Positions 1-17,331 of a DNA stretch of 38,096 nucleotides are shown in pieces (position 1 is the first letter of the stretch; the number at the start of each line of letters is the position of its first letter). Below the pieces are notes generated by a model, which ran no database searches, had not been told where the DNA came from, and was given only the letters and a program-made list of their open reading frames with translations. The stretch is from an uncultured Alphaproteobacteria bacterium (GTDB taxonomy: Bacteria; Pseudomonadota; Alphaproteobacteria; HIMB59; GCA-002718135), in contig CABXSY010000014.1 in NCBI GenBank assembly GCA_902514875.1, positions 1 to 38,096 on the forward strand, in the 5' to 3' direction. Made by a program: the position numbers and the translations under genes.

Positions 1-224
1 TTGATTAATTTTGTTGAAATTTTTTTAGAATTTATAAATTCCAAAACTGATCTGCTTAAACTAGTTTTACTAATTGCTGTAAGAAAAGAGACATCAAAAT
101 ATTTTTTGTCAATATAGTTACAAAAATTTAGCGTATCACCAGCAAATGATTGCTGAAAAATATTATTCTTAGTATTGGCAATTTCAATCATACATTCGCC
201 AACTGAGCAAATTTTTGTTTTCAT
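1..224 (-). CDS. kdgK: 2-keto-3-deoxygluconate kinase (PfkB family), N-terminal part only
   Basis: This is the first 74 codons of a gene that runs off the left edge. The ATG (complement of 222-224) opens a frame without stops to base 1. The protein begins MKTKICSVGECMIEIA, followed by FAGDTLNF at about residues 27-34. Both blocks match the start of KdgK, whose GECMIEL and GGDTLN segments form the substrate side of the PfkB fold. KdgK phosphorylates 2-keto-3-deoxygluconate at C6 to give KDPG for the Entner-Doudoroff aldolase. It is the last visible gene of the minus-strand sugar operon, 8 bp after the mutarotase stop. The nearby UxuA makes exactly its substrate. The ATP-binding C-terminal half is outside the window, so integrity cannot be judged. 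Confidence 0.85.
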   Translation of the reverse strand, partial: MKTKICSVGECMIEIANTKNNIFQQSFAGDTLNFCNYIDKKYFDVSFLTAISKTSLSRSVLEFINSKKISTKLI

Positions 225-232
225 AATTAATT

Positions 233-556
233 TTAGTCGTGATGAAAAACTTCTTCCATACTAGACCACCATTCTCCCTTTTTTCTATTTGGGTCAGGAA
301 TTTGACATGGTCCACAAACACTCCACCACTCTTGAACTTTAGGGTCTGAGGCCATTAGCTTATTATCTCTATCAAGATTGTCTCCATGATATTCAACATA
401 TCCAAAAAGAGTATTTTTATGTAAATATATAGAGTAATTCTTAAAATTAAGTTCTGTTATATTTTTTAAGACTTCAGGCCAAACATTTGCATGAAGTTTT
501 TTATATTCTTCTATTTTTTCCTCTTTAATTCCAAGAGTCATACCTAATCTAATCAT
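233..556 (-). CDS. L-rhamnose/L-fucose mutarotase family protein
   Basis: A 107-residue protein of the L-rhamnose mutarotase family (PF05336; E. coli RhaM is about 104 aa). These enzymes interconvert alpha and beta anomers of 6-deoxy sugars. Seen in the sequence are the HANVWPEV block with the family catalytic histidine at His22, NYSIYLH at 40-46, and paired Trp77-Trp78 near the C-terminus, all of which line the sugar pocket in RhaM. The start codon directly abuts the fucosidase stop codon, so the two are probably translationally coupled. With fucosidase, fuconate dehydratase and a lactonase upstream, L-fucose (FucM-like use of this fold) is a likelier substrate than rhamnose. Substrate is inferred from context. 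Confidence 0.88.
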   Translation of the reverse strand: MIRLGMTLGIKEEKIEEYKKLHANVWPEVLKNITELNFKNYSIYLHKNTLFGYVEYHGDNLDRDNKLMASDPKVQEWWSVCGPCQIPDPNRKKGEWWSSMEEVFHHD

Positions 557-2020
557 TTATAAATAATCCTTTCTTGTTATTTTAAAACTGTATGCATGCT
601 CGCATGGTTTATTATCTGGTCTTGTTATATGGAGTCCATCTCTAGTCTGTCTCCATTCTACTTTATCAGTACTGCCTAATAATTCTACCCTTTCAATTTC
701 ATTATCAAAAAGTTTATATATACTTTCTATAGTAAAATCTTTGCTAGGCCATCCTAATGCAGTTGCATACAAAAAATTATCTTTTGTAGTGAACCGAAAA
801 TCTTTAGCAGTATAAATTAGTTTTGCTCGATTATCTGAAAAAGGTCCTGCTTCATTCATTTTAGTTGGGCCCTCTCCATATTGATCCCATGTTTCTGTTT
901 CAAATATTGCTTCTCCATTTACATCAAGCCATTTTCCAATACCCTCTAAAAGATTTTTATCTTCTTCTGGAATTGTTCCATCAGGTTTTGGTCCAATATT
1001 TAAAAGCATGTATCCATTTTTACTAACATTATCTATTAAGTAGTGAACTAAATCAGTCGTAGTTTTATATTTTGAATTCTTCATATAAGCCCAAGCACTT
1101 CCATCGTGGACTGTGGTATCAGTAATCCAATCATAGTGGGTTAATTCTGACTCTCTTCCTAGTTCAAGATCTAATAATCCAGAACCGGGGGGGAGATCAT
1201 GCCATTTATAAGATACAACTACTTCATTACCCCACTCAGCTTCTTTGTTATAATAATATGAAAGAAAATCTTTTTTATACTTTTCGTGAATAAATCTAAT
1301 TCCAAAATCAAACCATACATAGTCTGGTTTATAATTGTCTACTACTTCTTTTAATCTATTTAACCATCTATCATGAAAAGCTTTACTAGGCTTGTCTTGA
1401 TGTTCATTTGTTCTACCCCAATGATCCGGATATACAGCCTGATTTCCTATTAAATCTAAATTGTGAGGTTCACCATATAAACTTTCATATTCCTTTTTAG
1501 ATGTATCAAAATCATTGTTCCAATGTGGGAAAAAAAACCAGTTTTCAGCATGATGCATTGCTACCATATATTTCATCCCTTTATTTCTAATTGCTTTTTC
1601 AAGCTCTCTAACAATATCTCTTTTGGGCCCCATCTTGGATGCACACCATTCAGTATCAGAACAATTCCACATTGGAAAACCATCATGATGCTCTGCTACT
1701 GGTCCAGCAAATTGTGCTCCAGATCGATAATACAAATCTGCCCACTCTTCTGCATTAAATTTTTCAGCTGTAAACATTGGTATAAAATCTTTGTATCCAA
1801 ATTTAGATGGATGACCATAATGTTTACAATGATAATCAAACTGAGGACTAGGCGGTCTATACATCCAATAAGGATACCAGGTTACATTGGGTCCAGCAGC
1901 TGGAACAGAATAGATTCCCCAATGGGCATAAATTCCAAACTTAGCTTTTTTAAACCAGTTTGGTGTTTGATGTTGTTTTATTGATGACCAAGTTGGCTCA
2001 AAATAATTTTTTTTCATCAC
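557..2020 (-). CDS. Alpha-L-fucosidase, GH29, apparently cytoplasmic
   Basis: A 487-residue glycoside hydrolase family 29 enzyme that releases L-fucose from fucosylated glycans. Family motifs seen: KFGIYAHWGIYSVP at about 27-40, AEHHDGFPMW at 109-118, and WFDFG at 236-240, where Asp238 sits at the catalytic nucleophile position. LLNIGPKPDG follows later, before the end of the barrel. The N-terminus (MMKKNYFEPTW) has no hydrophobic signal segment, whereas many GH29 enzymes are secreted. The substrate would therefore be cleaved in the cytoplasm after uptake. It is the third gene from the visible 3' end of the sugar operon, between the lactonase and the mutarotase. ATG at codon 2 is an alternative start. 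Its acid/base residue was not identified by eye. Confidence 0.92.
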   Translation of the reverse strand: MMKKNYFEPTWSSIKQHQTPNWFKKAKFGIYAHWGIYSVPAAGPNVTWYPYWMYRPPSPQFDYHCKHYGHPSKFGYKDFIPMFTAEKFNAEEWADLYYRSGAQFAGPVAEHHDGFPMWNCSDTEWCASKMGPKRDIVRELEKAIRNKGMKYMVAMHHAENWFFFPHWNNDFDTSKKEYESLYGEPHNLDLIGNQAVYPDHWGRTNEHQDKPSKAFHDRWLNRLKEVVDNYKPDYVWFDFGIRFIHEKYKKDFLSYYYNKEAEWGNEVVVSYKWHDLPPGSGLLDLELGRESELTHYDWITDTTVHDGSAWAYMKNSKYKTTTDLVHYLIDNVSKNGYMLLNIGPKPDGTIPEEDKNLLEGIGKWLDVNGEAIFETETWDQYGEGPTKMNEAGPFSDNRAKLIYTAKDFRFTTKDNFLYATALGWPSKDFTIESIYKLFDNEIERVELLGSTDKVEWRQTRDGLHITRPDNKPCEHAYSFKITRKDYL

Positions 2021-2048
2021 CTAATTAAATTTAAAATTATATAATCTT

Positions 2049-2873
2049 TTAAAGACTATAAAATTGAGTTGCATTTTGAGAGAATATTTTATTTTTTTCG
2101 TCTTCAGAAAAAGAATTGCAATAATTCATTGCTAAATCAAACCAATTTGAATAATTATCTGCCATTGTTAAAACAGGCCAATCACTACCCCACATTAATT
2201 TATCAGATCCAAAAGTGTTAAGAATAAAATCAATATAAGGATCAAGCTGTTCTTTTGTATAATCTGGACCAACTTCTGTAAGAACTCCAGAGAATTTACA
2301 AAATACATTACTTGCTTTTGATAGTTCAGTCATATCCTTTTTCCATTGATCAATTTCAGACTTAGTAATCACAGGCTTCGCAATATGATCAATAACTATA
2401 GGAAGGAAATCATATTTTTTTACAAATTGTAGAAGATGTTGAAGATGATTTGGTCTAACTAAAGCATCAAAAGTTAAATTTTTTGTATTTATATATTTTA
2501 TATTTTCTTTTAGGTGATCATTTAACATCCAAGCATCATCTTGGATATCATGAATCATAGGCCTAAAACCTTTTAAAAGTGTACTCTCACAAAGTTTATC
2601 AATATCATCTTTTGCATTGTTGCTATCTAAATCAACCCAGCCCACCACACCTGCTATAAATTCGTATTTTGAGGCTAAACCTAATGTAAATTCTGTTTCA
2701 GCAACAGTATCAGCAGCTTGGACAATTACTGTTTTAGTAATATTTTTTTGTTTTATAAGCGGCTCAAGATCTTCTGGAAAAAAATCTTTATATAACACTT
2801 TCATATCTGGAGTCATCCAAGAGTAATCTCCTCTCGAAAGTTTCCAAAAATGTTGATGACTATCTACGTACAT
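2049..2873 (-). CDS. Amidohydrolase-family sugar lactonase (probable L-fuconolactonase)
   Basis: A 274-residue TIM-barrel metal hydrolase of the Amidohydro_2 group (PF04909, COG3618), which includes L-fucono-1,5-lactonase and L-rhamnono-lactonase. It opens with DSHQHFW, giving the metal-binding His6 and His8. Other family landmarks are FRPMIHD at 103-109, IDHIAKP at 161-167 and MWGSDWPV at 227-234, with Asp231 the expected catalytic aspartate. In the pathway it would hydrolyse the lactone made by the aldo/keto reductase to L-fuconate, the substrate of the dehydratase encoded immediately upstream. The start ATG abuts the dehydratase stop with no spacer. Exact lactone specificity is inferred from neighbours. 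Confidence 0.85.
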   Translation of the reverse strand: MYVDSHQHFWKLSRGDYSWMTPDMKVLYKDFFPEDLEPLIKQKNITKTVIVQAADTVAETEFTLGLASKYEFIAGVVGWVDLDSNNAKDDIDKLCESTLLKGFRPMIHDIQDDAWMLNDHLKENIKYINTKNLTFDALVRPNHLQHLLQFVKKYDFLPIVIDHIAKPVITKSEIDQWKKDMTELSKASNVFCKFSGVLTEVGPDYTKEQLDPYIDFILNTFGSDKLMWGSDWPVLTMADNYSNWFDLAMNYCNSFSEDEKNKIFSQNATQFYSL

Positions 2874-4169
2874 TTATTTCCAATAAGTACCATTATTATA
2901 ATCAAATTCATTAAGAGAACTATCCTTAATTTTTACAGAATATCCTGGATTTGTAGGAGTAACATATCCACCATCTTTAATTATTGCTGGATTTTCAAAA
3001 TGTTCAGAACAGCTTTCTGCATATTCACTTAATAATAAATCATGATTAGATATTATAAACTTATTAATTAGATTAAGATGCTGAACATATTCACATAAAC
3101 CAACACCACCTGCATGAGGAATCACAGGGGTATTAAACTTACTAGCTATTAAAAGAACTGGTAAAATTTCATTTATACTCGCAATTCTACAACTATCAAT
3201 TTGGCAATAATCTAAAGATTTGTTTTCTATAAATTGTTTAAACATAACTTTATTTTGTATCATTTCTCCTGTTGCAAGATTAACGTCAGGATGTGCATTT
3301 TTAATTTTTTTAAAACCTAATACATCATCAGGGTTGGTTGGTTCTTCATAAAATAAAATATCAAATTGTTTTAATTTTCCAATATTTTCGATAGTCTCAT
3401 TTACACTCCAGATTTGATTGGAATCTACCATTAATTTATTTTCATGACCTATTAAGTCTCTTACTAATTTACAGCGATGGATATCCCTTTCTATATCTTG
3501 ACCAACTTTCATTTTGAAATGAGTCCAACCCTTACTTAAATTTTCTTCAACAAGTTTCTTCATTTTTTCATCTGAATACCCTAACCAACCAGCTGCAGTT
3601 GTGTATGCAGGAAAAATGGTAGTGTTTAATTCGTCTAAATTTGAAGGCAAGTTTAGTTTTTTCTGATCAATTATTTTAGCCGCCTCATCTTTAGTAATTA
3701 CATCATCAATATATGAAAATGATAGTTTATCTAATAAATCTCTAGTTTTTAATTCAATTATATATCTCCAAAGTGGTTTTTTATGAAATTTAGAAATTAA
3801 ATCCCATATTGCATTAAAAAAAGCTGCAGCTGCAAGATGTGTTACACCTTTTTGTGGCCCCACCCATCTTAATTGACTGTGGTTTGTAATTTTTTCCCAT
3901 ATGGATGCGATATCCTTTTCTATTTCTTCAATATTTTTTCCAATAATAAATTCTTTAAAATATTCTATGACGGTACAACAAAGATCATTACCTTTTCCGA
4001 TAGTAAAGGTTAATCCAATACCAGTTAGATCTTTTTGATCAGTAAATATTGTGACATAAGTTGCAGAGTAGTCACAATCAACATGGACAGCATCAGTTCC
4101 CAAATTGTCTTTCGATGTTGGAAAACGAATATCCTGAGTTTTAATATCAATTATTTTCATATTGGACAT
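2874..4169 (-). CDS. fucD: L-fuconate dehydratase (enolase superfamily)
   Basis: A 431-residue member of the mandelate racemase/enolase superfamily that dehydrates L-fuconate to 2-keto-3-deoxy-L-fuconate. The active-site set is complete and closely matches the numbering known for Xanthomonas FucD: FKMKVG with Lys219 and Lys221, metal ligands Asp249 (MVDSNQIW), Glu275 (FYEEP) and Glu302 (ATGEMIQ), and catalytic His352 (PHAGGVGLCEYVQH). The length fits the family (about 430-440 aa). The upstream reductase gene ends at 4157, so the ATG used here overlaps it by 13 bp. A second ATG at codon 4 (4160) would give the ATGA overlap common in this window and is an equally good start. L-galactonate or D-arabinonate could be extra substrates. 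Confidence 0.92.
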   Translation of the reverse strand: MSNMKIIDIKTQDIRFPTSKDNLGTDAVHVDCDYSATYVTIFTDQKDLTGIGLTFTIGKGNDLCCTVIEYFKEFIIGKNIEEIEKDIASIWEKITNHSQLRWVGPQKGVTHLAAAAFFNAIWDLISKFHKKPLWRYIIELKTRDLLDKLSFSYIDDVITKDEAAKIIDQKKLNLPSNLDELNTTIFPAYTTAAGWLGYSDEKMKKLVEENLSKGWTHFKMKVGQDIERDIHRCKLVRDLIGHENKLMVDSNQIWSVNETIENIGKLKQFDILFYEEPTNPDDVLGFKKIKNAHPDVNLATGEMIQNKVMFKQFIENKSLDYCQIDSCRIASINEILPVLLIASKFNTPVIPHAGGVGLCEYVQHLNLINKFIISNHDLLLSEYAESCSEHFENPAIIKDGGYVTPTNPGYSVKIKDSSLNEFDYNNGTYWK

Positions 4170-5158
4170 CTTTCATCAATTAGTTTTTCATTAATTAAAT
4201 CTTTCCACAAATCTTCTGGGATAGGAAAATTTAAAAAATCTAAGTTTTGCTGAACTTGATCAAGTCTATCCATGCCTAATATCATGGAAGTAACAAGTTT
4301 ATTTGTATAACAAAATTGGATTGCCGCTGCTGGAACAGGCACATCATACTTTTTACAAATATTTGCTATTTTTAAGTATCGTTGTTTAACTTCTTCTGGA
4401 ATTTTATCATAAAAATAAGTAATGTTTTCACCTACACCTTTAGCTAAAATTCCTGAATTAAAAATTCCTGCAAGAATAATTCCTATATTATTTTTTTCTG
4501 CAATAGGGAAAAAATCATTAAGAGCGTTTTGATCCAATAACGAATATCTACCCGCAAGAACCATACAATCAAAATCGCCTGCATTTGCAAATCTTGCACA
4601 TATATCAGAGTCATTTACTCCCACTCCAATAGCCTTAATTACTTTTTCTTCTTTTAGTTTTTGAACAGCTTTATATGCGCCATCCATTGCTAATTTAAAA
4701 TAATGATCAACCTCGTCACCAAAATTAAATCGGTCCACATCATGAATTAAGCAAATATCTATTTTTGAAACAGCTAATCTTAATAATGATTGCTCAAATG
4801 CTCTCATGACTCCGTCATAAGAATAATCGAGATTAGGAGAAAAATTCAAACTTCCTGCAAATCTTCCTCTATCTATATTATCTTTTTTTGCTGGTGTAAG
4901 ATATCTACCAACTTTAGTTGATAAAAAATAACTATCTTCATCTACAGTTTTTAAAAAATTTCCTAATCTATGCTCACTTAAACCATAACCATACAAAGGT
5001 GATGTGTCATAAATATTGATTCCTTTTTCATAGCTTTTTTCAAGTATGTCATAGCAATTTCGCTCATCTAGATTTTCAAATAAATTACCTAAAGGTGCTC
5101 CACCAAAACCAATGGCTGTTAAGTTTATATCAGTTTTTCCAAGCTGTCTTTTATTCAT
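4157..5158 (-). CDS. Aldo/keto reductase, probable L-fucose/L-galactose dehydrogenase
   Basis: A 333-residue aldo/keto reductase (PF00248). The catalytic tetrad is visible: Asp51 and Tyr56 in YDTSPLYGYG, Lys82 in STKVGR and His139 in LIHD. The sequence resembles the D-threo-aldose/L-fucose 1-dehydrogenase and pyridoxal 4-dehydrogenase branch, which starts with GKT..N....GFGGAPLGNLF. It would oxidise the sugar at C1 to the 1,5-lactone with NAD(P)+, the first step before lactonase and dehydratase. It lies between the transporter ATPase (8-bp overlap upstream) and fucD. Known relatives accept L-fucose, L-galactose and D-arabinose, so the exact sugar is open. Confidence 0.87.
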   Translation of the reverse strand: MNKRQLGKTDINLTAIGFGGAPLGNLFENLDERNCYDILEKSYEKGINIYDTSPLYGYGLSEHRLGNFLKTVDEDSYFLSTKVGRYLTPAKKDNIDRGRFAGSLNFSPNLDYSYDGVMRAFEQSLLRLAVSKIDICLIHDVDRFNFGDEVDHYFKLAMDGAYKAVQKLKEEKVIKAIGVGVNDSDICARFANAGDFDCMVLAGRYSLLDQNALNDFFPIAEKNNIGIILAGIFNSGILAKGVGENITYFYDKIPEEVKQRYLKIANICKKYDVPVPAAAIQFCYTNKLVTSMILGMDRLDQVQQNLDFLNFPIPEDLWKDLINEKLIDERCPI

Positions 5159-6659
5159 GAATATTTCCCATAATCGATGAACTCATTTCTTCATAGTTAT
5201 GAGTATTGATAGTTTCACCAACTACCTTAAAATCTTTCATTGTTATAATTCTATCTGCTAAGCTAATCATTTCAGGCATATCACTTGTTATTAAAATAAT
5301 AGAAGTTCCTTTTAATGATAAATCTATAATTAATTCGTGTAAATAAGATTTAGTTTTTATATCAATACCAACTGTAGGTTCATCAATAAATAATATATCA
5401 GTTCCAGAAGCTAGCCATTTAGCTACACTAATTTTTTGCTGATTACCTCCAGATAAATTAGAAACGATTTGTTGATATGAAGGTGTTTTTACTTCAAGTT
5501 GTTTCACATATGGATCTACTTTATTGTAAACTATTTGATCATTTAAAAATGAAAGTATTTTTTTCAAATTTGACCAGACTGTTATTCCTGCATTAGATAA
5601 AACATCATGCATTAAAATTAATCCTTCTTTTTTTCTATCTTCACTTATGTATCCAATTTTAAATTTTTCTAATGCATCTTTTGGAGATTTGATTTTTATT
5701 TCTTTATTATTAAGTAAAATTTGACCAGAATTTATTTTTTCCAATCCTAAAACACATTTTAAAAGTTCTGTTCTTCCAGCTCCAACTAAGCCATACAAAC
5801 CAAGAATTTCGCCCTTTTTAAGATTTAAATTGATGTCTTTATGACCTAAATCAGTGTTTATGGATTGTAAATTTAATAAATTTTTATCATCAAAGTTTAC
5901 TGTTTTTTTTGAATTAATTATTTGCTCATCCCTACCAATCATTAATTTTACTAATTGTTGTCTATTTAAATTTGTAATTTGTTCTGACTCACATGCATTT
6001 TTACCATCTCTTAAAACAGTGACTTCATCACAGATCTCAAAGACTTCTTCAAGTTTATGACTTACAAAAACAATACTTACATCTTGTTCCGCAACTAGTC
6101 TCTTAAGTAATACAAACAAGTTTTTTGTATCCTGAGGTGATAATGATGAAGTTGGCTCATCTAATAATAATATTTTTGATTCTAATGAAAGAGCTTTTGC
6201 TATTTCGCATAATTGCATTTTTGCCACAGTTAAATCTGAAACTATTGTGTTTGGATCAATATCTAATTCCATAATATCAAGCCATTTTTTTGATTCTTTA
6301 GCAACTGCGTTATAATCTATTAAACCTAAATTATTTTTAGGTAGGTTAGTTAGCATTAAATTTTCACCAACTGAAAATCTTCTGATTAGATTTCTTTCTT
6401 GGTGAACAACTGAAATTCCTGAATTCATTGCTTCATTAGGTGAATTAAAAGATTGTACTTTATTGTTCAAAAATAGTTCACCTTCATTTTGATTGTAAAC
6501 ACCTGTAATTATTTTAATTAATGTAGATTTACCTGCGCCATTTTCACCAAGTAAAGCATGGATTGATTTTTTTTTAAGTCTAAAGTTTGCATTATCTAAT
6601 GCTTTAACACCAGGAAAATTTTTTGTGATTTTTTTGAGCTCCAGTATATTATCACTCAT
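5151..6659 (-). CDS. Sugar ABC importer ATPase, RbsA/MglA type (two ABC domains)
   Basis: A 502-residue fused double ATPase that drives monosaccharide import. Domain 1 has Walker A GENGAGKST at 38-46, a degenerate signature (LTVAKMQ, as is usual for RbsA-like proteins) and Walker B LLLDEPTSSLS. Domain 2 has the atypical Walker A GLVGAGRTE, a canonical signature NLSGGNQQK and Walker B LFIDEPTVGID. One canonical and one degenerate half is the normal CUT2 arrangement. It overlaps the next upstream permease gene by 8 bp and the downstream reductase by 8 bp, so it is in the middle of the operon. Substrate from context: L-fucose or a similar sugar. Confidence 0.93.
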   Translation of the reverse strand: MSDNILELKKITKNFPGVKALDNANFRLKKKSIHALLGENGAGKSTLIKIITGVYNQNEGELFLNNKVQSFNSPNEAMNSGISVVHQERNLIRRFSVGENLMLTNLPKNNLGLIDYNAVAKESKKWLDIMELDIDPNTIVSDLTVAKMQLCEIAKALSLESKILLLDEPTSSLSPQDTKNLFVLLKRLVAEQDVSIVFVSHKLEEVFEICDEVTVLRDGKNACESEQITNLNRQQLVKLMIGRDEQIINSKKTVNFDDKNLLNLQSINTDLGHKDINLNLKKGEILGLYGLVGAGRTELLKCVLGLEKINSGQILLNNKEIKIKSPKDALEKFKIGYISEDRKKEGLILMHDVLSNAGITVWSNLKKILSFLNDQIVYNKVDPYVKQLEVKTPSYQQIVSNLSGGNQQKISVAKWLASGTDILFIDEPTVGIDIKTKSYLHELIIDLSLKGTSIILITSDMPEMISLADRIITMKDFKVVGETINTHNYEEMSSSIMGNIHE

Positions 6660-7620
6660 AAGAAAACACCTTTGTTCTTCTTTCTTCTCTATACTCTCTA
6701 TATCTATTTATAAAGACAGCTAATAAAATCATAAAACCTAAAAATATTTGTACAAAAAAAGGATCAATTTTAAAAATTACTAATGCTTGTGAAATTATTG
6801 AAACTAGAATGACTCCAAAAGCAGTAGCTATAACATCAACTTTCCCACCAGCTAAAATTGCACCTCCAATAACAGGAGCAGCAAAAGATGGTAATAACCA
6901 TGAGTCACCAATATTAGGTGTTCCAAGTTGTAATCGACAAACTACTAACATTCCACCTATCGCAGCTAAAAGACCTGAAATAACGTGAGCATAAATAACA
7001 ATTTTTGTTGAAGATATCCCTATTAGCTCAGATGATTGAACATTATTTCCATAAGCTAACATATATCTTCCAAGTGATGTTCTATTCATTAAAATCCACA
7101 TCAAAATTGTTATAACTATTGGAATTATTACTAAATATGGAATTGGTCCAAGAATTTTAGCGTTTCCAAAAAATTTAACAGCATCAGGAATTTCATAAAA
7201 GGGTTGTGCTTCTGTTATACCTAAATTCATTCCTTTAAAAATATAAAGTGTTGCCAGTGTAATAATAAAAGCAGAAATTCCTGTCTTAACAGTTATATAT
7301 CCATTAATAAAACCACAAGCTAATCCTATTAATAATCCAATTAACATAGCAGGTAATATAGACATGGAATAAACTTCCATTAAACCGGTAAAGGAAATAG
7401 CAACTAAGCCGCCAATAGCACCAACAGACAAATTCATTTGACCAATAGCAATTATTATCATTTGAGACATTGCAACAACTAGCATAAGACTTACACTAAG
7501 CATTAAAACATATAAATTAAATGGAGAGATAAATGCTGGCTTAAAAAATGAAATTAAAATTGAACCAAGTATTATAACTAAGCCAAGTCCAAACCAATCT
7601 TTTTTAAGTAGATTACTCAT
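6652..7620 (-). CDS. Sugar ABC importer permease, RbsC type (1)
   Basis: A 322-residue hydrophobic protein of the BPD_transp_2 family (PF02653) with about eight to ten membrane helices. Family landmarks are INLSVGA-like QMNLSVGAIGGLVA near the first third, and KTGISAFIITLATLYIFKG in the middle, which corresponds to the TG.PSFIVTLGT stretch of RbsC. A cytoplasmic basic tail (RYREYREERRTK) ends the protein. It overlaps the second permease by 4 bp (ATGA). The two permeases are different enough in sequence to suggest a heterodimeric channel rather than a recent duplication. Confidence 0.92.
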   Translation of the reverse strand: MSNLLKKDWFGLGLVIILGSILISFFKPAFISPFNLYVLMLSVSLMLVVAMSQMIIIAIGQMNLSVGAIGGLVAISFTGLMEVYSMSILPAMLIGLLIGLACGFINGYITVKTGISAFIITLATLYIFKGMNLGITEAQPFYEIPDAVKFFGNAKILGPIPYLVIIPIVITILMWILMNRTSLGRYMLAYGNNVQSSELIGISSTKIVIYAHVISGLLAAIGGMLVVCRLQLGTPNIGDSWLLPSFAAPVIGGAILAGGKVDVIATAFGVILVSIISQALVIFKIDPFFVQIFLGFMILLAVFINRYREYREERRTKVFSYE

Positions 7621-8603
7621 GACACAATTGAATTTTTAACTGTGAAATATTCTCTCGCTCTGTCTAATAAAACTGCTCCTAATAATATCATTCCAAGAAA
7701 AAATCTTACCCAAAACTCACCAACATCAATAAGATATAATCCATTATTAATTAAGGTAACAAGTATAGCTCCAAGCATAGTTCCAAAAACTGTTACTTTT
7801 CCTCCAGATAAAAGTGTTCCTCCTAAAACTGGCGCTAAAAATGCTGGTAATAACCAATCGAAACCTAAATGACCTGCCATAGAAGGAATTGCAGCACCTA
7901 TTCTTGCAGTTAACATAATTCCTGCTAAAGCTGCTAAAAATCCCGACAACATATGACAATAAATAAACATCCTATCAACTGAAATACCTGATAGCTCTGC
8001 TGCATCAGGATTTGCTCCAGCTGCAATTAGTTTTCTGCCGATATCAGTAAATTTAAATACATAATAAAGAATAAAACAAGTTAAAACACTTATAATCAAA
8101 AGTGGCGAAATATATTTATTAAAAAGTTTTAAACTTCCAAAATCTGTAAAAATTTCAGGTAGTTTTCTAAATGCTTCTGCTTCTGTTAAAAGAGTCATAA
8201 AACCAAAATAAATACTCATAGTTGCCAAAGTAACTATAAAACTATGAACACCTGTTCTCACAGTTACAAAACCATTTATCCAACCTAAGAATGACCCAAA
8301 AGCTAAAACTAAAATTATGGAAATTGGAATAGGTATTCCCATACTTTCCATGCACCAACCACCAAACATTGCAGCTGAAACTCCTAGCGCACCTAAAGAT
8401 AAATTTAATCCACCAGTTAAAATGACAACCATCATTGCAAGGCCTATCATAATATCTAATGCTACTACTCTAGATAATGCGTAAATATTAAATCTTGATG
8501 TAAAACCATCAGTAGAGAAAGAAAAAATGCAAATAAAAAAAATTACAAGACACAACAAACCAAACTGATTTGTTTTTACAAAATTAGGTATTTTGAAATT
8601 CAT
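7617..8603 (-). CDS. Sugar ABC importer permease, RbsC type (2)
   Basis: A 328-residue paralogue of the adjacent permease (PF02653), with about eight to ten membrane helices. It carries the same landmarks: GGLNLSLGALGVSAAMFGG, VRTGVHSFIVTLATMSIYFG and APVLGGTLLSGG. It is expected to form the membrane channel together with the neighbouring permease. The gene starts just downstream of a strong terminator-like hairpin that separates it from the binding-protein gene, so its transcript level is likely lower than that of the binding protein. Directed by the same operon promoter upstream of 9669. Confidence 0.92.
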   Translation of the reverse strand: MNFKIPNFVKTNQFGLLCLVIFFICIFSFSTDGFTSRFNIYALSRVVALDIMIGLAMMVVILTGGLNLSLGALGVSAAMFGGWCMESMGIPIPISIILVLAFGSFLGWINGFVTVRTGVHSFIVTLATMSIYFGFMTLLTEAEAFRKLPEIFTDFGSLKLFNKYISPLLIISVLTCFILYYVFKFTDIGRKLIAAGANPDAAELSGISVDRMFIYCHMLSGFLAALAGIMLTARIGAAIPSMAGHLGFDWLLPAFLAPVLGGTLLSGGKVTVFGTMLGAILVTLINNGLYLIDVGEFWVRFFLGMILLGAVLLDRAREYFTVKNSIVS

Positions 8604-8640: not shown

Positions 8641-9669
8641 TTAACTTGGGCAGTTTAAGTAAGTGCTATCAAATGTTTCAAGAATTTCTAATGAAATTCC
8701 TCTCATAGCCATTACGTAAGTATCAACATCACTGATGTCTACAAATACTGTTCCAGAGTCAATAAATTGATCAGTTTGTGCAGTAGATTTCCAAGGTGCA
8801 TCTGATTTAAATTCACATCCTTGTCTAACTTTATCCATTACATAAGAACCAATGTATCCTTGACCATATGGATTTTGCAACATTGTTCCATGTACAAAAC
8901 CATCTTTAATAGCTTTTAAAACTACTTCATCATGATCAATTCCAACCATTTTAATTCTTTTGTCACCCATGTTAGTTAAAGCTTGAGCGGCTACAACAGC
9001 TGGAACCCATGCTGTAGTAACAATACCGTCAACTTCACCACCTTGAGCTGCCATAAAAGCATTGATTTTTTCATCAGCTGGTTCGTAAGCATCGATATCT
9101 GCAATTACTTGGATAATTTCAACTCCACCACCTGCTTCTGAAACAGCTTGTTCAACAGCATTAATTCTTAATGTTGTGTTAGGATCAACTAGGAAACCAG
9201 TGAAGTGGGCAATTTTACCTTTTCCACCAAGTGCCTTGATTAATTCTTTTGTTCCAAGATAAGCTGAGTGACCTGTATCAGTTCCAAAGCAAAACTTAGC
9301 TTGAGTTGGCTGTTCTACACAACCTGCTAAAGCAGCAGTAGGTACACCAGCATCATCAAGTTCACCTAAAATTTTGTTTGTTCCAACTGCATCACCAGGG
9401 AACACAAGAACTGCGTTGTAACCTTGACCAACTAAACTTTCAATTAACTCGTTTTGTTGACTAAGATCCCACTCTGCAGGGACTCTGTAATCTGCTTTGC
9501 CTAATCCAAAATCTTTTACAGCGTCTAATCCAGCTTGTTCCCACGCAGCAAAATAAGGGTGTGGGCCACCTGGAACTAGAGCAACTTTAGTAACACCATG
9601 ACCGCCTGCAAAAACAGTTGATGATATTAAAGCTGAAAAAGAAATTATAAATATTAAAAATTTTTTCAT
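8641..9669 (-). CDS. Periplasmic sugar-binding protein of RbsABC-type importer
   Basis: A 342-residue type-I periplasmic binding protein (Peripla_BP_4). The Sec signal is residues 1-21: MKK, then a hydrophobic stretch ending SSTVFA before GGHG. The mature part starts TKVALVPGGPHPYFAAWEQ, the usual first strand and hinge of sugar-binding proteins. Four cysteines (two in the region AALAGCVEQ..KFCFGTD and two near the C-terminus) could form disulfides. Codon use is less AT-biased than its neighbours, as expected for a highly expressed gene. A perfect AGGAGG Shine-Dalgarno (9674-9679) lies 4 nt before the ATG. It is the first gene of the operon running to the left edge. Substrate is inferred (L-fucose or similar). 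Confidence 0.93.
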   Translation of the reverse strand: MKKFLIFIISFSALISSTVFAGGHGVTKVALVPGGPHPYFAAWEQAGLDAVKDFGLGKADYRVPAEWDLSQQNELIESLVGQGYNAVLVFPGDAVGTNKILGELDDAGVPTAALAGCVEQPTQAKFCFGTDTGHSAYLGTKELIKALGGKGKIAHFTGFLVDPNTTLRINAVEQAVSEAGGGVEIIQVIADIDAYEPADEKINAFMAAQGGEVDGIVTTAWVPAVVAAQALTNMGDKRIKMVGIDHDEVVLKAIKDGFVHGTMLQNPYGQGYIGSYVMDKVRQGCEFKSDAPWKSTAQTDQFIDSGTVFVDISDVDTYVMAMRGISLEILETFDSTYLNCPS

Positions 9670-9770: not shown

Positions 9771-10958
9771 ATGCTGTACTCATTTAGATGGTTTGGTGAT
9801 AATGATCCCTCAAAATTAGATCAAATTCGCCAGATAGGAGTTGAAGGAATTGTATCATCACTAGCACAAATAAAATATGGTGAAAAATGGAGCTCAATTG
9901 AAATCAAGAAAAGAAAAAAATTTATTGAAAGTTTCAAAATTAGTAAAAATAAAAAATTAACTTGGAGTGTTGTTGAAAGTCTTCCTGTTCATAATGATAT
10001 AAAAAAAAGATCTGGAAAATATAGATATTACATTGATCAATATAAAGAATCTTTGGTTAATTTAGGAAAGAATAATATAAAAAATATTTGTTACAATTTT
10101 ATGCCATTGATTGATTGGGTGAGAACAGATTTAAATTATCAACTACCAAATGGAGCATTTGCCCTAAAATATAATCATCTTCATGTCTGCGCATTTGAAA
10201 ATTTTATTTTGAAATCAAAAACAGCTAAAAAGAGGTATTCATCCAAAGATATACATACTTCAAAAAAAATATTACAAAAAATGAATTCTAGTGATTTAAA
10301 AAAACTTAAGATGTCTTTACTTGGAGGGTTAGCTGCAAACGATAGAAAATATACAATTAAAGATTTAAATTATGAGATTGATCAATTTGCAGAATTAAAT
10401 CATAGTGATTTACAAAATAATTTAAAAGATTTTATAGAAGAGATTTATCCCATCATAAAAAAATATAATATTCATTACAATATTCACCCAGATGATCCTC
10501 CGTATAATGTTTATGGATTACCAAGAATTGTCTCAAATGAGAAAGATATTAATTTTATTGTGAATATAAAAAAAGATACAAATATAGGTTTAACTTTTTG
10601 TACAGGATCACTTGGTGTTAATAAAAAAAATAATTTAGTCAATATAATCAAAAAATATGGTTCTTATATAAATTTTATTCATTTAAGAAATATAAGACAC
10701 ATTCCAAAATCTCTCGATTTTTATGAAGATGACCACCTTAATGGAAGCCTGGACATGGTGTCTATTATCAAAGCAATATTAAAAGAAGAAAATAAAAGAA
10801 AAAAAAATAATCATCCTATTAAACAAATTCCTATGAGGCCTGATCATGGACATACAATACTTCATGACCAATTTAATTCAGTAATACCTGGATATTCATT
10901 ATTAGGAAGAATGAAAGGGCTAGATCAGCTTAAAGGTGTGATAAAAGCTATAAATTAA
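9771..10958 (+). CDS. uxuA: D-mannonate dehydratase
   Basis: A 395-residue protein (E. coli UxuA is 394 aa) that dehydrates D-mannonate to 2-keto-3-deoxy-D-gluconate. The hallmark segments of the family are present: FRWFGDNDPSKL at 5-16, LTWSVVESLPVH at 63-74, CYNFMPLIDWVRTDL at 107-121, then HPDDPP, FCTGSLGV, HLRNIRH and the C-terminal MRPDHGH. Several of these His, Cys and Asp residues bind the catalytic metal. No Shine-Dalgarno is visible and a -10-like box is only 8 nt upstream, so the transcript may have almost no leader. It faces away from the sugar operon. Its last 11 bp overlap the oppositely oriented Ldh-family gene. Confidence 0.95.
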   Translation: MLYSFRWFGDNDPSKLDQIRQIGVEGIVSSLAQIKYGEKWSSIEIKKRKKFIESFKISKNKKLTWSVVESLPVHNDIKKRSGKYRYYIDQYKESLVNLGKNNIKNICYNFMPLIDWVRTDLNYQLPNGAFALKYNHLHVCAFENFILKSKTAKKRYSSKDIHTSKKILQKMNSSDLKKLKMSLLGGLAANDRKYTIKDLNYEIDQFAELNHSDLQNNLKDFIEEIYPIIKKYNIHYNIHPDDPPYNVYGLPRIVSNEKDINFIVNIKKDTNIGLTFCTGSLGVNKKNNLVNIIKKYGSYINFIHLRNIRHIPKSLDFYEDDHLNGSLDMVSIIKAILKEENKRKKNNHPIKQIPMRPDHGHTILHDQFNSVIPGYSLLGRMKGLDQLKGVIKAIN

Positions 10959-11998: not shown

Positions 11999-13429
11999 CT
12001 ATGAAATTATTTCTTTTAATAATAATTTTAAAGGATTTTCTTTCATTAAATTTATATTTTTTTTGACAGCTGTTAACATTTCTTCTCTTTTACTTACCGA
12101 AAGATTAAAAATATTTTTATTATTAATAATTTCTTCAAAAAAATTATCCTTACTATATTTGTAAACACTGTAAAAGTATTCTTTGTTCGCATCATCAAGT
12201 CTATTTTGATCTTCTTCAATAATTTGAAATAAGAAAAATAACCAGCAGGAAATAATAAAAGAAATATATTTAGTTTCGCCTTTGTTGTTATTATAAGTAT
12301 CAAGTATTCTGATGGGTATTTTTAAAGATCCATCCATAGCAATTCTTAATAATTTATCTTCTATGAAAGTATTTTTAAATCTCTCCAATATTTTTATTTT
12401 ATATTCTTTAATATTAAAGTTATCTTTGGTCTCTAAAGTAGGTAATACTTCCTTATCTAGAAAATTAAAGATGAAATTATAAATATTTTCATCTTCAATT
12501 GCTTCATGAACATAAGTATATCCACACAAATGCCCAATATATGCTAATGCTGAATGAGAAGCATTAAGAATTTTAAGTTTAATATTTTCATAAAATTTTA
12601 CGTCATCGACAAACTTAATTTTATTATTTGCTAAAATATTTTTTAGTTCATTATTTTTTGATTGAATGTACCAATCTCTATAAGGTTCTGTAACAACAAT
12701 TGCATTATCAATATAGGGTAAGTTAAAAAATTCAGATTTTTTATTATTATTTGGTACAATTCCATCAACCATAGACAATGGAAATTCAATATTTTCTTTA
12801 AACCAATCTAAACACTCAGGATTTTTTTTTTCTATAAATTCCTTGATTAAATTTTGTAAAATTTTTCCATTTTCAGATAAATTATCACAACTAAGTACAA
12901 TCAATTTTTTCTTATTTTGCTTATATCGTTCTATTATTCCAAAACCTAAATGGCCTATCATAGTAGATAAATCTTTATCCTCTAGATCATTTTTGATTTC
13001 ACTAGAAAAATTTAATTTTTTATTTTTATCAAAATGATATCCCTTTTCTGTAACAGTAATTGTAATAAGTTTAATGTTTTCAGATACAATTAATTTTCTA
13101 ATTTCGTTCTTGTGCTTTAAACCAAATAAAACTTTTTTAATTGGATTTAAAATATCAACTTTTTTGTAATTATTTGATACCCTTACCAGAGAATACAAGT
13201 AATCTTGCACTTGCATTTTATTATTGGTTTCTTCAGACCTTAAATTGACTCCAATTATGGAAATATTTTTATTATTTTTTAATATTTCATGAATATACAG
13301 AGCTTGGTGGGCTCTATGAAAATTACCAGTGCCAAAATGGAGTATGCAATCTTGATTATTGTTAATATTATAGGTTGGAAAAGATTGTTCTTTTAAAAGA
13401 TTTCTGTTTATATCCTTATTTAATTGCAT
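11999..13429 (-). CDS. uxuB: Mannitol dehydrogenase family, probable fructuronate reductase
   Basis: A 476-residue polyol-specific long-chain dehydrogenase (N-terminal PF01232, C-terminal PF08125). Motifs: CILHFGTGNFHRAHQALY at 28-45, which is the nucleotide-binding loop, TVTEKGYH at 125-132, SCDNLSENG at 180-188, and the catalytic Lys284, Asn289 and His292 in KLKILNASHSALAYIG. The spacing Lys+5 Asn, +8 His matches Pseudomonas mannitol dehydrogenase. UxuB and mannitol/arabinitol dehydrogenases look alike. The neighbouring uxuA, whose substrate UxuB produces (D-fructuronate + NADH to D-mannonate), favours UxuB. It is divergent from the SDR gene with only 30 bp between the start codons. Confidence 0.85.
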   Translation of the reverse strand: MQLNKDINRNLLKEQSFPTYNINNNQDCILHFGTGNFHRAHQALYIHEILKNNKNISIIGVNLRSEETNNKMQVQDYLYSLVRVSNNYKKVDILNPIKKVLFGLKHKNEIRKLIVSENIKLITITVTEKGYHFDKNKKLNFSSEIKNDLEDKDLSTMIGHLGFGIIERYKQNKKKLIVLSCDNLSENGKILQNLIKEFIEKKNPECLDWFKENIEFPLSMVDGIVPNNNKKSEFFNLPYIDNAIVVTEPYRDWYIQSKNNELKNILANNKIKFVDDVKFYENIKLKILNASHSALAYIGHLCGYTYVHEAIEDENIYNFIFNFLDKEVLPTLETKDNFNIKEYKIKILERFKNTFIEDKLLRIAMDGSLKIPIRILDTYNNNKGETKYISFIISCWLFFLFQIIEEDQNRLDDANKEYFYSVYKYSKDNFFEEIINNKNIFNLSVSKREEMLTAVKKNINLMKENPLKLLLKEIIS

Positions 13430-13459: not shown

Positions 13460-14212
13460 ATGATCAACAAAATATATAAAAGTGCTCTAATAACAGGTGC
13501 ATCAAGCGGTATTGGATTAGAAACACTTAAAAGATTTTTAAATGAAAATGTAAAAGTTTATGCTCTTGATAAAAACGTTTCAATATTAGAGAAATTGAAA
13601 AAAAAACATAAATTTGAAATCATACAAATTGATCTCTTTGATACAGATCAAATTTATCAAAAACTCACCAAACTAAAAGTTGATGTTATAGTTTGTAATG
13701 CAGGTATTGGCAGAGGAGCTGAAGGTATATTAAAAGCATCAAGACAAGATATTGAATTATCTACTAGATTAAATGTTGAGTCTTATCTTCATACTTTAAA
13801 AGCTATTGTTCCAGGAATGATAAAAAGAAGAAAGGGACATGTAGTTTTAATGGGATCTCTTGCAGGTCTATACCCGCAAATGAGCACTGTTTATGGTGGT
13901 CAAAAAGGTGCTATCCATAGAATTGCACAGAGCTTAAGAATTGAACTTAGCGGTTCCAGGGTTAAAGTTTCTGAAATATGTCCTGGCAGAACTAAAACAA
14001 ATTTTGGTAAAGCCGCATTTGCAGATAAAAATAAAGCTAAAAAATTTATGTCTGGTTTTACTCTTCTCGAACCAAGAGATATTGCTGATGCTATAATGTT
14101 TGCTTTAAGTGTTAGATGGCGAAGCAATATTAGCACTATTGAAATTTCTGGCACAGAACAATCCCCAGGCGGAGTCCCGATTATTCCAGTAAAAGACCCA
14201 ATACTTTCATAA
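13460..14212 (+). CDS. Short-chain dehydrogenase/reductase, YdfG-like
   Basis: A 250-residue classical SDR. The cofactor loop is TGASSGIG at 12-19, CNAG is at 79-82, and the catalytic Ser133, Tyr145 and Lys149 lie in GSLAG and VYGGQKGA. The second half (RIELSGSRVKVSEICPG, then NFGKAAF and a C-terminal IEISGTEQ) resembles YdfG-type 3-hydroxyacid/serine dehydrogenases. That group also contains the sulfoacetaldehyde reductase IsfD. It has no Shine-Dalgarno and a TATACT box (13444-13449) 10 nt before the ATG. The substrate may be a hydroxyacid in the uronate cluster, a keto-deoxy sugar acid such as 2-keto-3-deoxy-L-fuconate, or sulfoacetaldehyde. None can be confirmed here. Confidence 0.85.
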   Translation: MINKIYKSALITGASSGIGLETLKRFLNENVKVYALDKNVSILEKLKKKHKFEIIQIDLFDTDQIYQKLTKLKVDVIVCNAGIGRGAEGILKASRQDIELSTRLNVESYLHTLKAIVPGMIKRRKGHVVLMGSLAGLYPQMSTVYGGQKGAIHRIAQSLRIELSGSRVKVSEICPGRTKTNFGKAAFADKNKAKKFMSGFTLLEPRDIADAIMFALSVRWRSNISTIEISGTEQSPGGVPIIPVKDPILS

Positions 14213-15357: not shown

Positions 15358-16124
15358 AAATTAATCAAATTGCTGTAACACTTTATACTGTTAGAGATTT
15401 TTGCCAAAATGAAAAAGATTTATTTGAAAGTTTAAAAAAAATCAAAACTATTGGATATAGTAGCGTTCAAATCAGTGGTGTTGGTTTAATTGATCCTAAA
15501 ACAATTAAAAGAATGTGTGAAGATTTGAGTTTAGTTATATGCGCTACACATGAACCAAATGAACAAATTATAAACAATACCGATGAAGTTATTAATAAGC
15601 TAAATATTTTTAATTGTGAATATTCAGCTCTTCCTTATCCATTAAATTTAGATATGAAAAACTTAAAAGAAATAGATAAATTCATCAAAAATATAAATAT
15701 CGCTGGCTCCAAGTTTCATGAAGAAGGAAAGGTATTATGCTACCATAATCATGCTCTTGAATTCCAGAAAATTAACAATGAAATAATTTTAGATAGAATT
15801 TATGAAAATACAGATAGTAAATTCATACAAGGAGAGCCAGATATTTATTGGATACAAAAGGGTGGTCAAGATCCATTAATGTGGTGCAAAAAATTAGAAC
15901 AACGAATGCCTTTATTACACTTAAAAGATTTTATTATGATAAATGATCAAGAAAGTTTTTTTGCAGAAGTTGGCTTAGGTAATTTAGATATCAAAAATAT
16001 TGTAAAAACATCAACTGACTCAGGTTGTAAATGGTTTATTGTTGAGCAAGATGAATGTAGTGGTGATCCTTTTGATTCACTTCGGATTAGCTTTAATAAT
16101 TTAGTAAAATATGCAGTTACTTAG
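15354..16124 (+). CDS. Sugar phosphate isomerase/epimerase-like TIM-barrel protein
   Basis: A 256-residue xylose-isomerase-like TIM barrel (PF01261, COG1082). Typical metal-site segments are present: ATHEPNE, CYHNHALEF, GEPDIYWIQKGGQDP, LLHLKDF and FIVEQDEC near the C-terminus. The family includes inosose dehydratase/isomerase and 3-keto-glycoside hydrolase-type enzymes. It frequently pairs with Gfo/Idh/MocA oxidoreductases, as it does here with a 4-bp overlap. An attractive role is processing a 3-keto sugar made by the partner, but that is inference. The 3' end overlaps the convergent uronate isomerase-like gene by 8 bp. Confidence 0.87.
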   Translation: MKINQIAVTLYTVRDFCQNEKDLFESLKKIKTIGYSSVQISGVGLIDPKTIKRMCEDLSLVICATHEPNEQIINNTDEVINKLNIFNCEYSALPYPLNLDMKNLKEIDKFIKNINIAGSKFHEEGKVLCYHNHALEFQKINNEIILDRIYENTDSKFIQGEPDIYWIQKGGQDPLMWCKKLEQRMPLLHLKDFIMINDQESFFAEVGLGNLDIKNIVKTSTDSGCKWFIVEQDECSGDPFDSLRISFNNLVKYAVT

Positions 16125-17331
16125 CAAAAAAACTTTTTGCATTTTGATCTAATAAATTATTTATATCTCTTTCTATTACAAATTTTGATAACTCAAAATT
16201 TTTCTTTGAGAGATCTATATAATATTCATATAGAATCTCATGCAAAATATTTTTGAAATGAGACCATTTATAAATTAATTGATCGGTAACCCTTGCATCA
16301 GAGTGTTGAGGTATAAATGAAAGACCTAGCATATCAATCCTCATTTTTAGGATAAATTTTATAATACTTGGTTGGTTCATAAACCACCAAAAACCAAAGA
16401 TTTTTAAATTAGGATGTTTACGAGCTAAGACAGTTAATTCGTGCTGATCATTTAAAGATAAACAAGTTACAAGAAATTTATTTTTTGGGAAAGAATTACA
16501 TAATTTACTTAGTTCTTTGAGATTGATATCACCAATCCCATCTCCAGCTAAACCAAAACTAGTATTTACAGCTCGTTTAACACCTAACATTAAAGACAAT
16601 GGGATTTTCTTTTCATTTAACCATGACAAAATTAATTTCCAAAGAGGATCATTTAAAATTTCTTTAAAATTATCTGAGTTTGCTGAAATAGCTGCATATA
16701 CTGGATTTGAAATTAAAAAACAGCTATCTAAATAATTAATTACAATATCATTTTGATTTTGATTTTTCTTAGTTTGATTTTTTGCAACATCAATTGCCTG
16801 GGAATTATTAATGATTAAATCATCTAGTCTTAAAGATGATTGAAATATATTTCTATCCCAGTCATTATTTTTATATAAATTCCACTCATCATTATCAAAT
16901 GGATTATTTGTCATTACTAGAGAAGAAACATTTGATAATTGTAAAATTTTATTATCTGTAAGAGATTTTTTTTCATATTCATTGTTTAATTCTTCAAAAG
17001 TTTTATTATTATAATTAATATCTAATTTTTGAAGTACAGTTAGCACACCCTTACGTGCCTCAGAAATTGGAGTTCTATTTTGAAATAGCTCTTCCCAGAT
17101 AAGTTTTGCTTTATTTATTTCATCCAGAGAGTAAAATTTATCTGCACTTATATTTGCATTGGTTAATAATTCTGCAATTAAGTAATGATAGTTTAATAAA
17201 TTAATAAAACCAGAAAGAGAATGACTTTTAAAGACAGATGGAAATAAATGCGTATGAATATCAAAAATTTTTGTATTATTAATGACGTCTTCTAAAGTAT
17301 TGGATAGTTCCTGATTAGACATATTTATCAC
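16117..17331 (-). CDS. Divergent uronate isomerase (UxaC-like, amidohydrolase superfamily)
   Basis: A 404-residue protein with weak overall but clear local resemblance to glucuronate isomerase. The N-terminal metal motif is IFDIHTHLFP with His26 and His28. GVKRAVNTSFGLAGDGIG at 250-267 matches the R..N......G.D.G region, FGFWWFMNQP lies at 312-321, and QHSDAR at 342-347 holds the catalytic-type Asp345. E. coli UxaC is longer (about 470 aa). It would convert D-glucuronate to D-fructuronate for UxuB. The start is GTG at 17331 in a GTGA overlap with the preceding gene; an ATG at codon 4 (17322) is an alternative. It ends the minus-strand importer operon. Confidence 0.72.
   Translation of the reverse strand: MINMSNQELSNTLEDVINNTKIFDIHTHLFPSVFKSHSLSGFINLLNYHYLIAELLTNANISADKFYSLDEINKAKLIWEELFQNRTPISEARKGVLTVLQKLDINYNNKTFEELNNEYEKKSLTDNKILQLSNVSSLVMTNNPFDNDEWNLYKNNDWDRNIFQSSLRLDDLIINNSQAIDVAKNQTKKNQNQNDIVINYLDSCFLISNPVYAAISANSDNFKEILNDPLWKLILSWLNEKKIPLSLMLGVKRAVNTSFGLAGDGIGDINLKELSKLCNSFPKNKFLVTCLSLNDQHELTVLARKHPNLKIFGFWWFMNQPSIIKFILKMRIDMLGLSFIPQHSDARVTDQLIYKWSHFKNILHEILYEYYIDLSKKNFELSKFVIERDINNLLDQNAKSFFAK

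Follow-up and report, generated by a model that had tools for sequence, protein, structure and literature searches.

How does a bacterium dispose of a sugar acid that the kinase at the end of its own operon should be unable to use? The question is raised by a 38,096-nucleotide stretch of DNA from an uncultured Alphaproteobacteria bacterium (contig CABXSY010000014.1, here C14), which we call the window and which is the entire contig, in a draft genome of 1.27 Mb in 54 contigs that is 78% complete. On its minus strand, from position 9669 down to base 3, an operon of closely spaced or overlapping genes encodes a sugar ABC transporter, an aldo-keto reductase (AKR), the L-fuconate dehydratase FucD, a fuconolactonase, a GH29 alpha-L-fucosidase, a RhaM-family mutarotase and the start of a kinase resembling KdgK. 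A preliminary description of this DNA had reported reductase, lactonase and FucD followed by KdgK, all of which are indeed present, and had argued, soundly, that 2-keto-3-deoxy-L-fuconate (KDF), having no C6 hydroxyl, cannot undergo the usual KdgK chemistry. It regarded the fate of KDF as unclear, a view that does not hold: as described below, contig C32 of the same genome carries genes for a predicted KDF 4-dehydrogenase and hydrolase pair. We consider it highly probable that two known pathways share one operon, with KDF finished by the enzymes of C32 and with KdgK and the aldolase Eda finishing a hexuronate branch. The apparent puzzle would then be an ordinary one, because a standard enzyme set elsewhere in the genome finishes the fucose product.

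The fate of 2-keto-3-deoxy-L-fuconate

As the preliminary description had noted, the operon proteins of the window include no KDF dehydrogenase or hydrolase. A short-chain dehydrogenase/reductase (SDR) encoded at 13460-14212 in the window was considered as a KDF dehydrogenase and ruled out, since the arginine cluster and signature residues of that enzyme are missing. On C32, an SDR gene (3058-3795) overlaps a gene for an FAH-family hydrolase (3783-4643). The top solved relatives of this SDR are human BDH2 (2ag5, 290 bits) and the L-KDF 4-dehydrogenase (KDFDH) of Herbaspirillum huttiense (231 bits). According to passages of PMC11199699, the type-1 KDF dehydrogenase signature in H. huttiense numbering is Arg148, Thr183, Arg192 and Arg214, and Trp252 of the H. 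huttiense enzyme contacts the C6 methyl group. The C32 protein is complete for this R-T-R-R signature, for Trp252 and for the Ser-Tyr-Lys triad; it is most likely a type-1 KDF 4-dehydrogenase, predicted from these residues to carry out the NAD-dependent oxidation of KDF. The top PDB match of the neighbouring hydrolase is L-2,4-diketo-3-deoxyrhamnonate hydrolase (8gsr, 298 bits; the next match scores 197), and the same passages equate 2,4-diketo-3-deoxyrhamnonate with 2,4-diketo-3-deoxy-L-fuconate (PMC11199699). C32 ends inside a gene of the flavin mononucleotide (FMN) L-lactate dehydrogenase type (C32:4694-4876), and in relatives a complete lactate dehydrogenase-type gene follows the SDR-FAH pair. 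In the proposed route, L-fucose would be oxidized by the AKR, delactonized and dehydrated by FucD to KDF, all within the operon; KDF would be oxidized at C4 by the dehydrogenase of C32, and the FAH-family hydrolase would split the oxidized KDF to pyruvate and L-lactate, with the L-lactate dehydrogenase-type gene next to it.

The same arrangement recurs in a comparison set of 101 genomes of the genus, the window's own genome included. The FAH family is present in 82 of them (in the own genome at C32). Open reading frames (ORFs) were called at a minimum of 80 amino acids, or 70 in some slot and locus readings, with overlapping ORFs mostly dropped. Across 20 loci fetched, the SDR stands immediately before FAH in 19, and all 19 of these SDRs, the own one included, carry the signature residues; in the twentieth region (L097, a 4-kb contig) the two genes were not resolved by the ORF calls. 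FucD itself comes in two types: the window type, hereafter FucD-A (at least 72% identical), in 35 of the 101 genomes, and a second type, 50-53% identical, in 43. The two types occur together only in G080; G014 carries a FucD-A fragment, and 23 genomes have neither type. At the second-type loci read, an SDR lies directly after FucD in 16/16 and an FAH-sized gene follows it in all 15 loci not cut by a contig end; the SDR and FAH families at these loci were confirmed on L067, where the FAH homologue falls below the curated cut-off of NF053535 (385.5 vs 500 bits). FucD-A genomes keep the SDR-FAH-LldD-ferredoxin genes and the same right-hand neighbours, without FucD there, and the FAH subfamily (~1e-70) occurs in 29 of the 35. 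To judge from this shared gene order, both FucD types would feed the same downstream enzymes.

It is very improbable that KDF is instead cleaved unphosphorylated, to pyruvate and L-lactaldehyde, by Eda or by a DHDPS-family aldolase elsewhere. Such a route 1 is already known (passages of PMC11199699), Eda does lie at the operon end, and the genome holds four DHDPS-family and two HpcH-family matches. Those genes, however, are on other contigs with no demonstrated linkage to the fucose genes, the pair for the alternative route 3 is encoded complete, and Eda tracks uxuA rather than fucD, as shown by the slot comparison below.

kdgK and eda at the operon end

The kinase gene (3..224, minus strand) starts 8 bases after the mutarotase gene and in the same direction, and only its first 74 residues lie in the window because C14 begins at window base 1; this fragment matches NF052444 at 43.8 bits (E 2e-11), below the cut-off of 400. 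Searching the same genome for PfkB proteins places the C-terminal 77 residues, with a GAGD motif, at the opening of contig C40 (C40:1-234), where the order is kinase fragment, eda for 2-keto-3-deoxy-6-phosphogluconate (KDPG) aldolase, and a divergent, agmatinase-like gene that we name speB-like by inspection. In the first reading of FucD-A loci, from 24 relatives, RhaM-KdgK-Eda runs intact up to speB in 17 (three of them, L043, L059 and L060, without GH29); four have a cassette after the lactonase gene, in one a contig end interrupts the locus, and two have no kinase or aldolase at the operon end. Since the relatives show this intact order, C14 and C40 almost certainly adjoin each other in the genome at their left ends, with the middle of kdgK missing between them. 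Assemblies of several relatives also break in or near kdgK (G090:C19/C1; G039:C4/C10). The RhaM-KdgK-Eda operon end is not due to chance. The place directly after kdgK, for which the preliminary description had named a KDF dehydrogenase and hydrolase pair, holds no such pair; eda stands there, on C40 and in the relatives.

In the four cassette loci (L053, L055, L057, L058) an SDR after the lactonase gene was considered as a replacement for kdgK-eda and proved to be an insertion only, with GH29-RhaM-KdgK-Eda still present farther downstream in all four; the three inserted SDRs examined have no KDF-dehydrogenase arginine cluster. Counting L207, five relatives have the cassette, placed between the lactonase and GH29 genes; it consists of an SDR, a fatty-acid-hydroxylase-like protein, a GntR regulator and an apparent ABC sugar transporter (families confirmed in L207 only), to which L058 adds a BKACE protein and a second SDR.

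The preliminary description had also offered a kinase of changed regiochemistry, and this idea finds no support. Phosphorylation of KDF at C4 or C5 would account for the position of the kinase in the operon, the single point in its favour. The full-length kinase of one relative (L039), however, has E. coli KdgK as its top PDB match (3lhx, 132.9 bits), and the GAGDG motif of KdgK is seen in the C40 part and in relatives. In an alignment of 13 kinases, those of fucose operons are collinear with the kinase of G060, a genome without fucose genes at this site, and have the conserved blocks AGDTLNF, YWRD.SA, GITLS and SGAGDG.NAAY in common. As KDF also has enzymes of its own, we regard altered regiochemistry as extremely improbable. 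No report of a KdgK-type kinase acting on KDF appeared in the portions of the literature covered by a search on KDF/fucose and 2-keto-3-deoxygluconate (KDG) kinase. Eda, for its part, scores well above the gathering threshold of PF01081 (112.5 vs 27.8 bits) and, aligned to 1eua, has both the E in EVTLR and the K in KFFPA, residues that have functional roles in KDPG aldolase.

What kdgK and eda travel with

KDG formed by UxuA needs a kinase and KDPG aldolase. In the window, the proposed source of KDG is a D-mannonate dehydratase, UxuA (9771..10958, plus strand), divergent from the operon and well above the equivalog cut-off of TIGR00695 (396.4 vs 199.55 bits; PF03786, 338.8 bits). Two further genes, both on the minus strand, would complete the branch. 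The first (11999..13429) encodes a UxuB-like protein of the mannitol dehydrogenase family (PF01232/PF08125), which scores below cut-off for all three nearest NCBIfam families: D-arabinitol 4-dehydrogenase (NF043014, 244 bits), fructuronate reductase (192) and tagaturonate reductase (181). The second (16117..17331) encodes a uronate-isomerase-like amidohydrolase, which has the uronate isomerase BH0493 as its top solved match (PDB 2q08/2pnk, 289.6 bits, E 3e-85) and has no Pfam match. KdgK and Eda would phosphorylate and cleave the KDG made by this branch, with no action on KDF.

The association was examined at the slot marked by the speB-like gene, which 76 of the 101 genomes carry; G088, without a SpeB match, was not counted, four slots (G007, G075, G086, G087) were each put together from two pieces that overlap or adjoin, and gene-order classes were assigned by hand. 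The slot left of this gene is a variable sugar-degradation island: L199 has a GH31 hydrolase there, L206 a sulfatase together with a sulfatase-modifying-type protein, and others GH29. Eight slots cut by contig ends, in which kdgK and/or eda are present (the own genome among them), and three that were too short were left out. In the 65 slots read through to speB, kdgK-eda is present in 24/24 with window-type uxuA versus 1/41 without it (Fisher p 6e-17, a value uncorrected for relatedness and therefore overstating the evidence). Two of the 24, G002 and G060, have kdgK-eda and uxuA without window-type fucD; in G060 a UxuB-like gene and uxuA are divergent from kdgK-eda, speB follows, and no fucose gene lies between. 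Conversely, the two slots with FucD-A and no uxuA (G029, G036) both lack kdgK-eda, although G036 has another kinase-aldolase pair elsewhere, beside a distant UxuA relative (L196). A further 12 slots have none of uxuA, fucD-A and kdgK-eda. Because kdgK-eda follows window-type uxuA, and because the window also encodes the UxuB-like and uronate-isomerase-like proteins, KdgK and Eda most likely finish hexuronate catabolism; of the readings put forward in the preliminary description, the best supported is that KdgK acts on the product of UxuA.

The discordant genomes also bear on the idea that the operon handles C6- or C5-hydroxylated analogues as well (L-galactose, D-arabinose), whose keto-deoxy acids would pass through KdgK and then Eda. 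The AKR (4157..5158, minus strand; PF00248, 140.8 bits), the presumed L-fucose/L-galactose 1-dehydrogenase, has L-galactose dehydrogenase as its top PDB match (7smi, 109.7 bits), a resemblance that fits L-fucose and L-galactose equally; FucD of Xanthomonas campestris reportedly also takes L-galactonate and D-arabinonate, which would suit this idea, as would the direction of kdgK-eda and its closeness to the mutarotase gene. Yet kdgK-eda occurs with uxuA in G002 and G060, where fucD-A is lacking, and is missing from the slot in G029 and G036, where fucD-A is present. Cleavage of the L-galactonate product would moreover yield L-glyceraldehyde 3-phosphate, probably a poor metabolite, and KDFDH of H. 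huttiense itself oxidizes L-2-keto-3-deoxygalactonate and, weakly, D-KDG (PMC11199699, Table 1). We consider this explanation unlikely, but L-galactose, which the preliminary description had put forward, may be a side substrate. Quite unlikely, too, is an arrangement with two outlets, in which KDF leaves through the remote pair and the L-galactose or D-arabinose analogues, admitted by a promiscuous AKR, lactonase and FucD, leave through a KdgK-Eda that also serves UxuA.

Several observations weigh against a division of labour in which C32 finishes KDF and KdgK-Eda finish the hexuronates. The FAH subfamily was not found in 6 of the 35 FucD-A genomes, drafts that are 53-84% complete, and its absence there is likely due to incompleteness. 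At least one genome without a close FucD, G027, also has the SDR-FAH-LldD locus (G027:C2, L091, among the 20 loci fetched), so the SDR-FAH pair may serve other keto-deoxy acids. Full-length slot kinases reach ~180-203 bits on NF052444, below the curated cut-off of 400, for which reason we call the kinase KdgK-like; that cut-off is reached in 0/101 genomes and in 1/14 control genomes. Eda falls short of TIGR01182 (128.8 vs 156). UxuA is not always paired with kdgK-eda, because a second type of UxuA (~46% identical to the window's) occupies 26 slots (L199-L206 and L215-L242), none with kdgK-eda, and 24 of these 26 genomes have no KDPG-aldolase match anywhere. One slot, in G052, is a true exception, with AKR-kdgK-eda and no uxuA. 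Finally, the decisive discordant genomes are few, two with uxuA and no fucD-A and two the reverse, and they are related, so that the slot counts are not independent.

Operon genes, relatives and known systems

The remaining operon genes are all on the minus strand. Four transport genes, labelled by inspection, encode a periplasmic sugar-binding protein (8641..9669; no NCBIfam match at 1e-10), two ABC permeases (7617..8603 and 6652..7620) and the transporter ATPase (5151..6659); the order of the permease and ATPase genes is kept in relatives. FucD (2874..4169), of the enolase superfamily, has L-fuconate dehydratases as its nearest solved structures over its full length (4a35, human ENOSF1, 421.6 bits; 4ip4; 1yey, 398.7 bits; the range being 399-422 bits), the next unrelated entry scoring 119.5. 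For the L-fucono-1,5-lactonase (2049..2873), an amidohydrolase, NF052480 is the top family by far, at 220.5 bits against a curated cut-off of 400 that it misses (PDB 4dlf, 131 bits). Between the lactonase and kinase genes lie two that had previously gone unnamed, the GH29 alpha-L-fucosidase (557..2020; PF01120, 320 bits; PF16757, 41 bits) and the RhaM-family protein (233..556; PF05336, 113 bits), a presumed L-fucose mutarotase that scores below the TIGR02625 cut-off (47.6 vs 99.6 bits). Apart from the operon, a protein encoded at 25058-26431 has a fucose-isomerase C-terminal domain, with sulfoquinovose isomerase as top NCBIfam match (287 bits vs a cut-off of 700).

At least 28 near-full-length matches to FucD (L099-L125, L129), 94-98% identical, come from single-cell genomes of marine origin; the deposited names are uncultured Alphaproteobacteria and, in one case, Pelagibacteraceae bacterium AG-337-I02. 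Beyond the genus, a scan of named genomes found FucD relatives in other gene contexts, which have no bearing on KdgK. We take the host group to be AEGEAN169 (HIMB59-related), from general knowledge together with PMC11366302.

Neither the pathway described here nor its setting is new, and the result is a small clarification: a false gap would be removed from the fucose pathway of an abundant group of ocean bacteria. More generally, the gene order of one operon need not equal one pathway, as two sugar-acid pathways would share this operon and the last fucose steps would lie elsewhere. Fucose and uronic acids occur together in algal polysaccharides; if the two branches are co-regulated, as we infer, fucose and uronic acids would be used together.

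A close published counterpart is that of Ca. Indicimonas (AEGEAN169), for which passages of PMC11366302 describe a fucose operon that is conserved, has one GH29 gene and is assigned to the non-phosphorylating pathway, and name the KDF dehydrogenase step; the operon described here is like it in being a conserved, single-GH29 fucose operon of a presumably non-phosphorylating pathway. The main-text passages of that account make no mention of kdgK or eda, and the assignment of kdgK-eda to hexuronates was found neither in those passages nor in what a literature search on fucose operons covered; PMC10308909 does not mention fucose. The second pathway resembles the hexuronate series uxaC-uxuB-uxuA-kdgK-eda, with uronate-isomerase-like, UxuB-like, UxuA, KdgK-like and Eda-like proteins all encoded around the locus. 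It differs from the usual form in having an isomerase of the BH0493 type and in having the transporter and fucose genes placed between uxuA and kdgK-eda. The fucose pathway itself is like route 3, the non-phosphorylating L-fucose route of X. campestris and H. huttiense, in that AKR, fuconolactonase, FucD, a predicted type-1 KDF dehydrogenase and FAH are all encoded, and the route 3 products, pyruvate and L-lactate, would be expected from this genome as well. Unlike in those two systems, the genes are here spread over two loci, with the KDF dehydrogenase and hydrolase standing outside the operon.

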